64,000 bases of DNA from Eubacteriaceae bacterium CHKCI004 (GTDB lineage Bacteria; Bacillota; Clostridia; Lachnospirales; Lachnospiraceae): assembly GCA_900016875.1 (NCBI GenBank), contig FCNR01000040.1, positions 1 to 64,000 on the forward strand. Reading direction: 5' to 3'. The notes under the pieces were generated by a model that saw only the letters and a list, made by a program, of their open reading frames with translations, made no database searches and had not been told where the DNA came from. Position 1 is the first letter of the stretch; the number at the start of each line of letters is the position of its first letter. This document shows, piece by piece, positions 50,287 to 56,914 of this stretch. The translations under genes were made by a program, and so were the position numbers.

Positions 50287-51051
50287 CTAGATCAACTCCA
50301 GCACGCCCCGGATATCCTGCACAACAGCATCGGCGCCGGCGTCCATGTAACGTTTTGTCACCTCCTGCACTTTCGCTTCCTTCTCTTCCGGAGTGAGCGC
50401 TTCATACTCTGCTTTGGTAAGCCCCATCTCAGAACTTCCTTCAATAATGCCTGCGGTGAAGACACCTGCGTTTTTACCTTCACGGATATCGGAGATGGTA
50501 TCTCCCACCTTCATGACTTTATCCACGCTGGTGATGTGCAGCGCTTCCATGTTCTTAAAGATCATGTATGGATACGGACGGCCGGCGTGTCCGGTGGAGT
50601 CCGGGCTGAACCAGCAGTCAGGTTCATAACCGGCTTTTGCCGCTTCTTTTGTGACAATGTCCATCATGGCGTCGGTGTAGCCGGTAGTGGAACCGATCTT
50701 CAGACCGGCGTCGCGGAGCTTTGCCACAGTTTCTACCACGTAGTCTTTCGGGTCAGAGAACTGATCGAGAATCTTCATGAGATTGGCGGCAAATTTTTCG
50801 TGCATTTCATCCACATCTTTGTCAGTAAAGTCCCTGCCATGGATACGTTTAAATTCTTCACGAATCCGCTCCATGGACAGCATGGTCTTGATGTGGTCCC
50901 ATTTTAACATTCCCATAGGTTTTCTTGTCTCTTCCATGCTCGGTGTGATACCGTATTCTTTGAATATTTCCATAAATGCCTGCACCGGCGCAAAGCATCC
51001 GTAATCTACTGTCGTTCCTGCCCAGTCGAATATCACTGCTTCATATTTCAT
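50287..51051 (-). CDS. phnX: Phosphonoacetaldehyde hydrolase (phosphonatase)
   Basis: A 254-residue HAD enzyme that splits phosphonoacetaldehyde to acetaldehyde and phosphate. The nucleophile Asp is in VIFDWAGTTVDYG (position 9), and the Schiff-base lysine specific to phosphonatase is K50 in PMGMLKWDHIKTM. GSTTGYTDAMM and KVGDTISDIREGKNAGVFTAGII complete the HAD motifs. It follows phnW by 41 bases in the same operon. Confidence 0.95.
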   Translation of the reverse strand: MKYEAVIFDWAGTTVDYGCFAPVQAFMEIFKEYGITPSMEETRKPMGMLKWDHIKTMLSMERIREEFKRIHGRDFTDKDVDEMHEKFAANLMKILDQFSDPKDYVVETVAKLRDAGLKIGSTTGYTDAMMDIVTKEAAKAGYEPDCWFSPDSTGHAGRPYPYMIFKNMEALHITSVDKVMKVGDTISDIREGKNAGVFTAGIIEGSSEMGLTKAEYEALTPEEKEAKVQEVTKRYMDAGADAVVQDIRGVLELI

Positions 51052-51092: not shown

Positions 51093-52196
51093 TTACGCTG
51101 CGGCTCTTTTTGCTTTAATGAACTCTTCGATGATGTCGCAGACTCTGTTGATATCTTCCGGATAGATTTCACCGATGTTACCGATGCGGAAAGTCTCCGC
51201 GTCTGTCACCTTGCCCGGATAGATGGCGTAGCCGCGCTCTTTGATGTACTGGTACATTTCCTGGAAGGTGTAATTCTTATTGGCCGGATAGAAAAATGTG
51301 GTGATAATCGGTCCCTGATATTCATCTCCCACGTAAGTTTCAAAACCAAGAGCACGAAGTCTGCTGGTAAGAAGCTTATTATTTTCTGTATAGCGTTTAT
51401 TTCTTGCCGGAATTCCTCCCTCTTCTTCCATTTCTTTTAACGCCTGGGCAAAAGCCAGAACGACATGGGTCGGGGAGGTAAATCTCCACTTACCGTCGGC
51501 CTGCATGGTCTCCCACTGGTCATAGAGATCCAGAGAAAGACTTCTTGCTTTGCCTTTGCTGGCCATAAGAGAGTCTTTTTTGCAAATGATGAAGGAAAAG
51601 CCCGGCACTCCCTGAATACATTTGTTGGCGCTGCTGATGATAAAGTCAATTCCCAGTTCACCCACAGGAATGTCTACGCCGCCGAAACTGGACATAGCGT
51701 CCACGATCATAGTTCTTCCGGCAGCCTTTACAACTTTGCTCACAGAAGCGATATCATTTAAGATGCCGGATGTAGTCTCGCTGTGAACCATGGAAACATG
51801 GGTTACTTCCGGATCTTCCTCCAGTATTTCAGCGATTCTTTTTGCATCAGGAATCTCATTATAATTAACCTCATATAATCTGTAATTGATGCCGGCATGT
51901 TCTGCGATATCTGCCATACGGCGGCCGTAAGAACCGTTGGCGGCGATGAGAAGTTTTTCATCACTGCCTACCGTGCTCGTAATCACAGATTCCACACCGA
52001 AAGTACCGCTGCCCTGCATGAGAACAACTGTATATTCCGGCTCACTGACATGAGCCAGCTCCAGAAGCTTGTCTCTGATCTCCAGCGTAATTTTTTTATA
52101 ATCATCATCCCAGGTGCAGTGGTCAAATAACATCTGCTCTTTTACAGTGTCGGTGGTTGTCAGCGGGCCTGGTGTTAAAAGTTTATAATTTTTCAT
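51093..52196 (-). CDS. phnW: 2-aminoethylphosphonate:pyruvate transaminase
   Basis: A 367-residue class V aminotransferase that moves the amino group of 2-AEP to pyruvate, giving phosphonoacetaldehyde and alanine. The PLP lysine is K192 in SSANKCIQGVPGFSF; other family blocks are KLLTPGPLTTT at the start and IVDAMSSFGGVDI. It lies 30 bases after the transporter gene and before phnX, so uptake and cleavage are one unit. Confidence 0.96.
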   Translation of the reverse strand: MKNYKLLTPGPLTTTDTVKEQMLFDHCTWDDDYKKITLEIRDKLLELAHVSEPEYTVVLMQGSGTFGVESVITSTVGSDEKLLIAANGSYGRRMADIAEHAGINYRLYEVNYNEIPDAKRIAEILEEDPEVTHVSMVHSETTSGILNDIASVSKVVKAAGRTMIVDAMSSFGGVDIPVGELGIDFIISSANKCIQGVPGFSFIICKKDSLMASKGKARSLSLDLYDQWETMQADGKWRFTSPTHVVLAFAQALKEMEEEGGIPARNKRYTENNKLLTSRLRALGFETYVGDEYQGPIITTFFYPANKNYTFQEMYQYIKERGYAIYPGKVTDAETFRIGNIGEIYPEDINRVCDIIEEFIKAKRAAA

Positions 52197-52226: not shown

Positions 52227-54860
52227 TTACTCTTCAGCCAGCGCTTTGGCATTCTCAGAAATCTGCTGATGCTGTTCCAATAAATCAACTGTCAGTTTTT
52301 CCGGGAATACCTTTGGATTTGCAGACATATACGCAGAGTCTGCTGTTTCTCCCTCATAGATTGGCAGAGGATAGTATTCCTGTAATTTTGCTCTTCCTTT
52401 TGTAATAATACATTCAGCCATTTCCATGGCAAGATCCTTGCTTTCATCACCTTTATCCACAACAGCGATGGATTCTGTCAGAGAATAGTTGCCTTCTGTC
52501 GGGTCAACATAATCTACCGGAAGTCCGTCTGCTTTATCTGCCACTGCCTGATGACGGAGACCGAATCCGATGGCTACCTCGCCGGCACGCACTTTTTTAA
52601 GAGGTGCGGAACCTGAGCTCTCCACGTGAGGGCCTGCGTTTTTGTAAATGTCTGCCAGGATCTGGGTTGCCTCGTCTTCACCGTAATTGTCTACCAGCGC
52701 CTGTAACAGAAGCCATGCTGTGGAAGAACTTGCGATGTCTGTGACGGAGATAAATCCGCTGTATACCGGGTTAGCCAGATCTTTGATGCTGGTCGGAGTC
52801 GGCAGATTATTTTCTGCCATCACTTCTGTGTTCAGAAGGATTGCTCCTTCCTGAGCAGTGATCGGCGTATAGAAGGAAGGATATTCATCCATAGCGCCTG
52901 TCTCAAAAGTCAGATCCTTAAACATGTTCTGCTGTTCCTGGGCGCTGTCCAGATAGAAGGAACTCATGGTCACCAAGTCAGCTTCGATGTTGGTTCCTTC
53001 CGCCAGAAGCTTTCCGCCCAGCTCGGAAGTACCGAAGGACTGAATGATGTACTGTCCGGAATATCCGTTTTCATCTAAAGTGCTCTTCATGGCCTCGATG
53101 GCTTCGTCGTCGGCGTTGGTGTAAAGCACCACTTCATCGCTGGCGGAGCCGCCGCATCCGGTCAGGACTGCGGAGAGCGCCATGGTCATTGCTACTGCTG
53201 CTGCTAAAAATTTCTTTCTCTTCTCTTCCTTTACCTTACTTCTGTCTGTCGCAAAGTATCCAAAAATCAATTTAGCTGCCAGATTCGTAAATAAGATCAG
53301 AAGGGACAGAACAAAAATCTCATTGAACTTTGTATAATATTGAAGCTCTTTAATTTTTGTGGTAATAACCATGGTTCTTGCTCCTGCGATAAAAATAACC
53401 GCACTTACTGTTACCATCGCATTTACAAAATAATAGCTGAACACTTCAAGTATGGTTCCCATAGCGTTCGGAGTTACCACCCGCACGATAGTTTTAAGCC
53501 AGGTATCACCCATGAGCATGGCTGTTGTCTCCCAGGAAGCGTTCATCTTTGCCAGGGAATTCTTTATCATCAGATAAGGCGTCGAGAAGAAATGGATGAC
53601 GTTACAGATGATAATGATGGCCAGGGTATTCTGCAGCGGTGTGCCGGAGAAAATAAGCATGTAGGCGATACCAATTACCATACCCGGTATTGTATTTGTA
53701 ATTAATGAAATATTTTCAATAACCTGTTTTACTTTGCCCGGCAGTTTACTTCTCGCAGTCGTAAGTGCTGCTCCATAAGTGAGCAGGGAGCCGAGGAGCG
53801 CCGTGAGAACGGCTACCAGAAGGGAGTTTTCATAAACACTGATCAAGCTTCTGTCTGCGAAGACTGCCTGAACATGTTCCCAGGTAAAGTTCATCTGGTA
53901 CGGCCAGTTTTCCACCAACGGCACCGCAAAGATGACCAGGAAGACAGAGAGTACCGCCAGAAGCACCAGACCGCTGGCTCCTCCGAAAATCACATCCCGC
54001 AAAGTATTTTTCCGAATCTCAATATTGGATATTTTGTTATAGCGAATATTATATTTTTCCAGATAGTGCAGAAGCGCGATCGTCAGTACGGAAGGAATAA
54101 GCATCATCATAGCCACTGCAGAACCGGTATTAAAGTTCGGGATACTTCCAAGCATTTCGTTATAAAGTACTGTTGCCACCACATCGTACTCGCCGCCCAC
54201 CGACGCCGGAATACCGTAATCGGTAAAGCATAAGAAGAAACACTGTACAAAAGATGCAGCCAGCGTTCCAAGAAGTGGGCGTACCACCGTAGCCATAAAT
54301 GTGGTCAATGGTTTATCCCCCATAATGCGGGATACGATGGTAAACTTTTTGTCAATATATTCCATGGTATTTGACACAAGCAGGAAGGATATCGGCAGTG
54401 TATAAATAACATATCCTAACAGCAGGCCGTTAAATCCGTAGATTTCAAAAAGCTGACGTCCCACAAGCTGTGTGATCAGTCCCTGCTTTCCAAAGGAATA
54501 GATGATGGCAAAACCATACGTGATGGTCGGCAGCAGCATTGGAACTACAGCCGCCTTTCGAATGAATCCTTTATACGCTTTTGGAATATTTGTATAATTA
54601 ATTGTATATGCAAGCAAAAACGCTAACAATGTTGTAATGATCGCACTGGCGGAAGAAATAATCAGGCTGTGCCCGAAAGCGCTCATAAAGCCGTGGCTTG
54701 TCAATACCTCCACGTAGTTTCCAAGAGATACTCCTCTGGCCTGTCCCTCAAAGGACTTTAAGAGAAGCCGGAGAATTGGAATCATCAAAAATACGAGAAA
54801 CAACGCCGTGACGATAATAAAAATGCCTTTAATCTCTTTTTCTTTTCTCTGTGTACCCAT
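52227..54860 (-). CDS. 2-AEP ABC transporter: permease fused to its substrate-binding lipoprotein domain
   Basis: An unbroken 877-residue frame. Residues 1-538 form a two-unit permease with about 12 helices; both halves carry ABC inner-membrane motifs (for example RIMGDKPLTTFMATVVRPLLGTLAASF and AMLMGDTWLKTIVRVVTPNAMGTI). Residues 539-550 are a positive linker (DRSKVKEEKRKK). Residues 551-569 form a signal-type helix ending in the lipobox LTGC (C569). Residues 570-877 are a solute-binding fold (DEVVLYTNADDEAIEAMKS ...) like 2-AEP receptors. In relatives these are two genes. Where the receptor's start Met would be, K547 (AAG, 53222-53220) replaces ATG, and no stop separates them. Topology works: helix 13 would place the receptor outside. 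Confidence 0.85.
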   Translation of the reverse strand: MGTQRKEKEIKGIFIIVTALFLVFLMIPILRLLLKSFEGQARGVSLGNYVEVLTSHGFMSAFGHSLIISSASAIITTLLAFLLAYTINYTNIPKAYKGFIRKAAVVPMLLPTITYGFAIIYSFGKQGLITQLVGRQLFEIYGFNGLLLGYVIYTLPISFLLVSNTMEYIDKKFTIVSRIMGDKPLTTFMATVVRPLLGTLAASFVQCFFLCFTDYGIPASVGGEYDVVATVLYNEMLGSIPNFNTGSAVAMMMLIPSVLTIALLHYLEKYNIRYNKISNIEIRKNTLRDVIFGGASGLVLLAVLSVFLVIFAVPLVENWPYQMNFTWEHVQAVFADRSLISVYENSLLVAVLTALLGSLLTYGAALTTARSKLPGKVKQVIENISLITNTIPGMVIGIAYMLIFSGTPLQNTLAIIIICNVIHFFSTPYLMIKNSLAKMNASWETTAMLMGDTWLKTIVRVVTPNAMGTILEVFSYYFVNAMVTVSAVIFIAGARTMVITTKIKELQYYTKFNEIFVLSLLILFTNLAAKLIFGYFATDRSKVKEEKRKKFLAAAVAMTMALSAVLTGCGGSASDEVVLYTNADDEAIEAMKSTLDENGYSGQYIIQSFGTSELGGKLLAEGTNIEADLVTMSSFYLDSAQEQQNMFKDLTFETGAMDEYPSFYTPITAQEGAILLNTEVMAENNLPTPTSIKDLANPVYSGFISVTDIASSSTAWLLLQALVDNYGEDEATQILADIYKNAGPHVESSGSAPLKKVRAGEVAIGFGLRHQAVADKADGLPVDYVDPTEGNYSLTESIAVVDKGDESKDLAMEMAECIITKGRAKLQEYYPLPIYEGETADSAYMSANPKVFPEKLTVDLLEQHQQISENAKALAEE

Positions 54861-54887: not shown

Positions 54888-55655
54888 TTACATTGCCATC
54901 TGCGGCTGCGCTTCCTGACTGAACAAAGTAAAGATGTTATTTCTTTTAATCACAAGCTGATTAAGAATAAACTCTTTGACAAAATCGTTGTCCGGTGTCT
55001 GGATGATCTCATCTGGCTTGCCAAACTGAGAAATAGTTCCATTATTGACAATCAGAACCTTATCAGATAAAGTCAGCGCCTCTTCCGGATCGTGGGTAAC
55101 GATGATGGTTGTCAGCTTAAATTCTCTCGCAATCTGTTTGATTTTATCTTTAATCGATTCTTTGATCACTCCGTCCAATGCGGAAAGCGGTTCATCCAGA
55201 AGAAGAATTTTCGGTTTCATGACCATGGTCCTTGCCAGAGCCACTCTCTGTTTCTGACCGCCGGAAAGCTGTTCGATCTTCTTATCCAGATGTTCTCTTA
55301 ATCCCAGCAGATCAATCATATCCTCCACTTCCTGCTGTGTGGAAATGTCCGGTTTGTTTTTTAATCCATATGTAATGTTTTTATAGACATTCAGATTTGG
55401 AAACAGGGCGTAATCCTGGAATACAATGTTGAATCCTCTTGCTTCCATCGGAATATCCAGCACGTTCTGTCCCTGGAAAATGATCTCTCCTTCATCGGCG
55501 TCAGTCAATCCAAGAATCAGATTCAACAATGTAGTCTTACCGCATCCGGAAGGTCCGAGAATCGAAACTATCTCGCCATCCTCAATACTGAGATTAATAT
55601 CGTGTAAAATTGTAACACCGTCATATGATTTTTTCAGATTTTTAATTTCAAGCAT
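54888..55655 (-). CDS. phnT: 2-AEP-type ABC transporter ATPase (PhnT-like)
   Basis: A 255-residue ATPase. Walker A is LGPSGCGKTTLLN, the signature QLSGGQKQRVALARTM, and Walker B ILLLDEPLSALD; IIVTHDPEEAL gives the H-loop. It is the first gene of the operon, before the permease-receptor fusion, phnW and phnX, which supports 2-AEP as substrate. GAGAACATT with AAAGGAG precedes the ATG. Confidence 0.9.
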   Translation of the reverse strand: MLEIKNLKKSYDGVTILHDINLSIEDGEIVSILGPSGCGKTTLLNLILGLTDADEGEIIFQGQNVLDIPMEARGFNIVFQDYALFPNLNVYKNITYGLKNKPDISTQQEVEDMIDLLGLREHLDKKIEQLSGGQKQRVALARTMVMKPKILLLDEPLSALDGVIKESIKDKIKQIAREFKLTTIIVTHDPEEALTLSDKVLIVNNGTISQFGKPDEIIQTPDNDFVKEFILNQLVIKRNNIFTLFSQEAQPQMAM

Positions 55656-56041: not shown

Positions 56042-56914
56042 CTACTTTTCAGACGGTTTCGCATCATATGCCTGTTTACGGATCGTATTACTGCTCCTGT
56101 CCAAAATCGCTGTGTATTTTTCATAATCGCTGAGGAGAATACCAGTATAGATCATATCCACCACCGCAAGCTGAGACACCCGGGAAAAAATAGCATCACC
56201 GTAAATAAAATGCTGTCCGCTTGTGATCAGAACAATGTCCGCATATTTTTCCAGCAGAGTATTTTCAAAATTGGTGATCGCAATGGTCCTCGCCCCCGCT
56301 TTTTTTGCAATCCGCATGGCATCTACCGTACTTATCGAGCATCCTGAATAAGAGATGCCGATGGCCACATCTTCTTTTGTCAGATTACCGGCACTGACAT
56401 TTTGCAGATAATAATCGGAATAAGAACAGCAGCTAAAACCCAGATAGGTAAGCTTTGTAACCAGATCGCTGGCCGTACATGAAGAGTTCTCCACGTAAAA
56501 TACCGCGATATTCCGCGCTCCAGTGATTGCCCTCACCGCCTTTTCCAGATTGTCAGCAGACAGATTTTTTAACGTGTCTTTCAGCTGTCCTACCGCAGTT
56601 CCGATCAGCTTGGCCGGCAGCTCCGCGATTTTATCGTCCTTTGATATGGACGATCCATACAGAAAATATCCTTTTTCTGTTCTGTCTTCTTCCCGCACCA
56701 GTTCATAGCGGAAATCTTTAAATCCCTGATATCCCAGCGCACGAATGAAGCGAAGTACCGTAGGCTGACTGACGCCTGCTCCGTCTGCGAACAGCTCAAG
56801 AGTCAGTTCACGGCCATCTCCCTGATAAGACAGAAGATAGTCAGCAGCTTTTTTTTCGGATTTTCGTAAAGAAGAATAATTCTCCCTTATGGTAAATTCC
56901 AGTTTTTCATTCAT
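56042..56914 (-). CDS. RpiR-family transcriptional regulator
   Basis: A 290-residue regulator. The N-terminal helix-turn-helix reads SLRKSEKKAADYLLSYQGDGRELTLELFADGAGVSQPTVLRFIRALGYQGFKDFR. The C-terminal SIS domain (residues about 125-260: NIAVFYVENSSCTASDLVTKLTYLGFSC, VAIGISYSGCSISTVDAMRIAKKAGARTIAIT) binds phosphosugars in characterised members. It is flanked by the 2-AEP operon and the sugar-phosphate operon. TGTA-N7-TACA sites precede both it and the 2-AEP operon. Confidence 0.9.
   Translation of the reverse strand: MNEKLEFTIRENYSSLRKSEKKAADYLLSYQGDGRELTLELFADGAGVSQPTVLRFIRALGYQGFKDFRYELVREEDRTEKGYFLYGSSISKDDKIAELPAKLIGTAVGQLKDTLKNLSADNLEKAVRAITGARNIAVFYVENSSCTASDLVTKLTYLGFSCCSYSDYYLQNVSAGNLTKEDVAIGISYSGCSISTVDAMRIAKKAGARTIAITNFENTLLEKYADIVLITSGQHFIYGDAIFSRVSQLAVVDMIYTGILLSDYEKYTAILDRSSNTIRKQAYDAKPSEK

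Follow-up and report, generated by a model that had tools for sequence, protein, structure and literature searches.

A single ATG-started frame runs on the minus strand from position 54860 down to 52227 of the window, the stretch of 64,000 nucleotides from Eubacteriaceae bacterium CHKCI004 analysed here, and encodes 877 amino acids with no internal stop. NCBIfam matches divide this chain in two: TIGR03262 (PhnU2) covers amino acids 13-540, with a whole-protein E-value of 2e-107, and TIGR03261 (PhnS2) covers amino acids 556-830, with a whole-protein E-value of 8e-33. The first part (residues 1-540; 53241..54860) is a permease made of two fused units, which we take from knowledge of the family to have six helices each; its top solved structure in Foldseek is the permease of the ferric importer FbpBC (9j4r_A, TMt 0.85). 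The last part (residues 570-877; 52230..53153) is the receptor, a solute-binding domain that also matches Pfam SBP_bac_6 and for which Foldseek returned AfuA/FbpA-type binding proteins; the stop codon of the frame follows at 52227-52229. Between the two lie a positively charged linker, SKVKEEKRKK (residues 541-550; 53211..53240), the signal helix of the receptor, now internal (residues 551-568; 53157..53210; from hydropathy and the structure model), and the lipobox cysteine C569 (53154..53156), which ends the motif LTGC at residues 566-569 of the codon list. A previous inspection of the letters alone (hereafter, the sequence-only reading) had described exactly such a frame, with permease, receptor, signal helix and lipobox in 877 residues, and the codon list and the NCBIfam matches confirmed it.

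The structure model of the whole chain has a mean pLDDT of 82 and a pTM of 0.80. Permease and receptor are folded with confidence; for residues 541-573 the confidence is below 50, and the model places a helix at 548-568 with low confidence. The NCBIfam "lipo-invert" domain also gave a match, which at 19.8 bits against a cut-off of 37 we took as a chance match to helix and lipobox.

The neighbouring genes described here lie on the minus strand as well. Upstream is the importer ATPase (255 aa; 54888..55655), whose best NCBIfam match is PhnT2 (303 bits, cut-off 458). Downstream are phnW, encoding 2-aminoethylphosphonate-pyruvate transaminase (51093..52196; TIGR02326, 533.6 bits, cut-off 400.8), and phnX, encoding phosphonoacetaldehyde hydrolase (50287..51051; TIGR01422, 360.4 bits, cut-off 220). 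The 2-aminoethylphosphonate (2-AEP) name of the sequence-only reading is thus backed by two adjoining genes that both exceed their cut-offs, but not by the importer parts themselves, which stay below the curated equivalog cut-offs (360 of 593 bits for PhnU2 and 114 of 393 bits for PhnS2). 2-AEP is therefore the probable substrate as judged from phnW and phnX.

The junction and the nearest split relative

Among the relatives, Eubacterium sp. An11 (L061, with the same DNA as G002 across the 2764 bases compared) is the nearest; it is split, and each of its two parts shares about 95% identity with the window chain. In An11 the permease ends in a stop codon, followed by 98 nt and then by the receptor start ATG AGA AAA AAA TTT; the aligned window reads AAG AGA AAG AAA TTT. 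The AAG codon of residue 547 (53220..53222) therefore occupies the position of the An11 receptor ATG, which bears out what had been proposed from the letters. Start codon aside, the window signal equals that of An11 up to the lipobox in all residues but one.

The window codon list has no in-frame ATG, GTG or TTG at residues 532-557 (TTG occurs out of frame only, and residue 532 is an in-frame ATT), so the earlier statement that the junction carries neither stop nor start also holds. The next ATG codons after the junction are residues 558 and 560, both within the signal helix and both without a Shine-Dalgarno-like motif in the 18 bases ahead. The junction helix has a mean hydropathy of 1.95 over 19 residues and is preceded by 25 residues with a net charge of +5. 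Permease and receptor thus share one unbroken frame, with a 19-residue hydrophobic segment between the last permease helix and the receptor, as in a tethered receptor. The LTGC cysteine also follows a short hydrophobic helix, as in a lipoprotein; this helix is internal to the window chain and not an N-terminal signal peptide of its own.

Permease core and receptor core lie 240 nt apart in the window, against 380 nt in An11. The sequence-only reading had explained the fusion by loss of the receptor start plus loss of the permease stop. Both are indeed gone in comparison with An11, but because 140 nt are missing, one deletion would be a simpler origin than two point losses. An11 does not fix the ancestral spacing, since the core-to-core distance goes down to 232 nt in other split loci.

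Measured against An11, omega was 0.023 for the permease part and 0.025 for the receptor part, beside 0.030 for the ATPase, 0.026 for phnW and 0.028 for phnX. Both parts are under strong purifying constraint, like their neighbours. Over the genes dS was 0.74-1.5, and 1.2-1.5 for permease and receptor; because synonymous sites are near saturation, these values do not date the fusion, and part of the constraint possibly preceded it.

The permease-receptor boundary among relatives

We collected relatives from genome_contigs (77 loci) and from overlapping draws at the level of genus (24 genomes), family (397 genomes), order (392 genomes) and phylum (398 genomes). The permease match had to reach residue 525 or beyond over at least 300 columns, and the receptor match had to start at residue 12 or before over at least 140 columns. 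These filters reduced 160 loci to 118 with both parts, 91 of them distinct, and 84 after removal of seven same-genome repeats. The boundary between permease and receptor was open in frame in 30 of the 84, the window counted, and 54 were split; this is not a frequency, since the query is itself fused and loci were ranked by match. In the family draw, which was evenly drawn, 30 loci were fetched and 27 passed the filter, 13 of which were fused; the further two-piece matches of this draw, outside the 30 fetched, are probably split. With so many open boundaries, the earlier remark that these are normally two genes was too strong.

The other boundaries of the operon behave differently. ATPase and permease share one open frame in 1 of 80 loci, and receptor and phnW in 1 of 77, the locus being L053 in both cases (Fisher p 1.9e-9 and 3.1e-9, respectively, for the comparison with 30 of 84; both ignore relatedness and should not be taken as exact probabilities). 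The excess over ATPase-permease fusions is not accounted for by spacing, because the median is 4 nt between ATPase and permease (80 loci) and 3 nt between split permease and receptor (52 loci); that between receptor and phnW is wider (34.5 nt, 76 loci). A phnW match was found within 600 nt downstream in 77 of the 84 loci.

The locus L053 (L053:4236-7919, Sellimonas caecigallum SW451; L119 is the same locus) has one 1227-codon frame in which the ATPase, the permease and the receptor are joined to the final quarter of PhnW. This PhnW fragment was the sole PhnW match shown in a search of the genome, so the 2-AEP breakdown pathway may be lost there.

In a gene tree of 91 rows the fused or split state changes 13 times, at least 10 of these being forced by starred branches. 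A second gene tree of 80 rows under a mixture model, built without L137, L159 and L102 (long branches in the first tree or by distance) and likewise without L100, gave 14 changes, at least 10 on starred branches. The quick method used for the trees does not distinguish gain from loss of fusion. Judging from these topologies, the fusion in the window is one of many changes at the permease-receptor boundary among its relatives.

Eight fused loci have record titles that give a strain or isolate and contain neither "MAG" nor "uncultured" (L033, L048, L049, L051, L053, L055, L058 and L094), and one is in a single-contig genome (G058, L108). The frame is open over all sequence covered in 29 of the 30 fused loci, the exception being L123 (G266), fused at the boundary but with a TGA early in the permease; the fused frames of L050, L059 and L062 run to the contig end, and L060 is without its first part. 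Core-to-core distances within fused clades differ by multiples of three only, which the fused state itself implies and which thus shows just that length changes left the frame unbroken.

Six seemingly fused loci with deletions inside operon genes were left out of the 84. Their identical match figures assign L004, L025 and L056 to one genome of the same genus, and L005, L024 and L104 to another. In L056, from a chicken-gut MAG, permease is joined to receptor and receptor to phnW; in L104, also from a chicken-gut MAG, the permease breaks off at residue 106 and is joined to the final third of the receptor. These deletions probably reflect decay or assembly collapse.

We did not find a fused junction in a scan of viral_contigs, nor a 2-AEP permease-receptor fusion in the titles and abstract starts of the open-licence literature. 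Going by these titles and abstract starts, the fusion in a 2-AEP importer has no printed precedent; a bare fusion of permease and receptor is of an already known kind.

A parallel case is found in the same family. As a control, we searched the PotC of the window genome in the same draw of 397 family genomes, and 222 had a match; among the 150 PotC rows listed, 55 had frames of more than 500 codons. Twenty rows with long frames (L162-L181) and twenty shorter ones were picked by choice and fetched. All twenty long frames were PotC-PotD fusions without a lipobox match, and all 21 split PotC/PotD pairs (L161 and L182-L201, made up of the twenty with shorter frames plus the pair of the window genome itself) had one. 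Like the window chain, PotCD (spermidine/putrescine) is a fused permease and receptor; it differs in its substrate, in having its permease made of two subunits, of which PotC is one, and in the lipobox, missing from all twenty fusions fetched. PotC-PotD, a sister family, thus shows the finished state, and what look like the preceding steps are seen in the AEP importer. Since such fusions exist, and a potCD gene of the permease-and-receptor kind has already been named in Mycoplasma capricolum (PMC3177781), the bare fusion is less novel.

Receptor start, lipobox and helix in fused loci

The receptor ATG between the permease end and the signal helix is kept in 24 of the 30 fused loci, preceded in 21 by a Shine-Dalgarno-like motif (not in L114, L118 and L120). 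The six fused loci without it are L051, L094, L054, L055, L063 and the window. A lipobox is present in every one of the 54 split loci. Of the 24 fused loci that retain the receptor ATG, 23 have it, the exception being L120, whose ATG has no Shine-Dalgarno-like motif. By contrast, it is lost in five of the six fused loci without the ATG, the window alone retaining it. In all, six fused relatives lack the lipobox (L120 scored by hand). Loss of start and loss of lipobox are associated among fused loci (Fisher p 2.4e-4), and the window breaks this association.

In L120, an AAGC near the beginning of the helix was not scored as a lipobox, and a GTG with a weak Shine-Dalgarno motif in L054 was not scored as a start. 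With L120 scored the other way, the lipobox is lost in five of six loci without the ATG versus none of 24 with it. A looser motif list, applied to a broad region, gave 23 fused loci with both a Shine-Dalgarno-led start and a lipobox. On the tree, start loss takes four changes and lipobox loss three (taking the L120 start as kept); the independent tree pairs are too few for a comparison, with two going the same way, none the opposite way and one showing no difference.

The helices differ as well. Anchor hydropathy is 1.87-2.49 in the six lipobox-less loci (median 2.3; five at 2.28-2.49, L120 at 1.87) versus 1.51-2.08 in the 23 fused loci with both ATG and lipobox (Mann-Whitney p 0.0008, relatedness ignored). 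For L063, which is without a lipobox, a structure model of the chain reached a mean pLDDT of 80, the junction helix at 561-578 again being poorly placed. From their sequences, the lipobox-less fused relatives look like permanent membrane tethers.

We read the window chain as a fusion that stands between the loss of the receptor start and the loss of the lipobox. We put forward more tentatively, at somewhat below even chances, that fusion is a repeated and directional route in this family: the stop would be lost, then the start, then the lipobox, with the helix becoming an anchor. The window chain would then have passed the second step but not the third, and it may be a working polyprotein, the internal lipobox being lipidated and cut in the midst of a polytopic membrane protein. 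If this route is true, the stage with the receptor ATG kept would allow both a fused and a free receptor.

To our knowledge, free receptors turned into built-in domains of ABC importers are known mostly from finished cases. Here one importer family spans split loci, fused loci with the ATG, fused loci without it and fused loci without lipobox, over many species. Because these stages coexist over many species, it can be tested directly in which order the steps occur and what advantage a single, fixed receptor brings.

One chain, tethered or cut

We consider translational fusion in the window nearly certain, and the fused chain is likely to be functional, given the sequence data. The reading as a whole, that a 2-AEP-type ABC importer has its permease and receptor truly fused in translation, is in our judgement highly probable. 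In comparison with An11, the permease stop, the intergenic stretch and the receptor ATG are gone, probably through one deletion, and the signal helix is still in frame; the ribosome would therefore make one chain. Based on the topology of the family and on the positive linker, the permease would end inside the cell, followed by the linker, the old signal peptide as a further helix, and the receptor outside. The earlier suggestion that the fused chain would be topologically sound is therefore plausible. Because both permease units are on the fused chain, each importer would have one receptor, held near the docking site and replacing a pool of free lipoproteins.

Since the window lipobox is intact, Lgt and lipoprotein signal peptidase may still act, and the two alternatives given by the sequence-only reading, a tethered receptor or cleavage at the lipobox within the chain, are both upheld as candidates. 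We see about an even chance that the chain is a polyprotein, C569 being lipidated and the chain cut by lipoprotein signal peptidase; the products would be a permease carrying one extra helix and a normal lipoprotein, in a 1:1 ratio. The single-residue difference from the signal of split An11 argues for it, as does the hydropathy of the window helix, within the range of fused loci with ATG and lipobox and weaker than in five of the six lipobox-less loci. On the other hand, the lipobox is usually gone from fusions without a receptor ATG (five of six AEP loci and all twenty fetched PotC-PotD fusions), so cutting seems dispensable for function. That the lipobox stays unprocessed and the receptor is permanently and covalently held on the permease, as in OpuA, we rate as a real prospect, if one short of even. 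Such a tether is consistent with the loss of the lipobox at least three times on the tree in relatives with a similar frame and with its absence from the fetched PotC-PotD fusions. The intact lipobox of the window argues against it. Taken together, lipidation and cutting, in part or in whole, and a pure tether are nearly balanced, with a slight leaning towards the former.

The remaining explanations are far less probable. A separate receptor made through internal initiation may well occur in relatives, because the ATG ahead of the helix is kept in 24 of 30 fused loci and is led by a Shine-Dalgarno-like motif in 21; in the window it is very unlikely, as in-frame ATG, GTG and TTG are missing from residues 532-557 and the ATG codons 558 and 560 are inside the helix and lack such a motif. 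It is similarly doubtful that the locus is a pseudogene in progress. The operon deletions in the two same-genus chicken-gut MAGs (L056 and L104) would fit decay, but omega is 0.02-0.03 in both parts and in the neighbours, where recent decay would be barely visible, and the frame is open throughout. An assembly or sequencing error could be suspected because the nearest relative is split and AAG is one base away from ATG. One misread base would restore the ATG but not the stop, however, leaving the frame fused as in the 24 ATG-bearing relatives; the 140 nt missing beside An11 are hard to ascribe to read error, and fused frames also occur in isolate-titled records and in a single-contig genome. 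We thus give an error hardly any credence. The sequence-only reading had set a relative with a stop plus ATG as refuting the fusion; An11 is such a relative, and it fits a young fusion as well as it fits an error.

The window poses the question of whether a signal helix can undergo lipoprotein maturation when it lies within a polytopic protein. In the cytochrome b-c1 polyprotein FbcH of Bradyrhizobium, a membrane protein and an exported protein are joined by an internal signal sequence and cut; the proteins and the signal peptidase differ from those considered for the window. A working example of such a tether is OpuA (OpuABC), a glycine betaine importer in which a hydrophobic anchoring sequence and a linker of 11 residues hold the receptor domain covalently on the permease (PMC11065425). 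Each OpuA importer has two receptor domains, and its substrate is a different one, whereas the window chain has both permease units, hence one receptor, and retains a lipobox. The receptors of GlnPQ are also tethered to the permease (PMC8025302), but as two tandem receptors at its N-terminal side, with four binding sites per importer. The 2-AEP importer AepXVW of Pseudomonas and marine bacteria comprises a binding protein, an ATPase and a permease for 2-AEP (PMC8316502); by description it has the same three functions as those predicted for the window importer, and it differs in having three named components.

The ATPase of the window importer (54888-55655) has 255 amino acids against 353 positions of the PhnT2 model, and therefore lacks the usual C-terminal part; the An11 copy aligns along the full 255 residues. 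A gene for an RpiR-family regulator with a SIS domain (56042-56914) precedes the importer genes on their strand and may control them.
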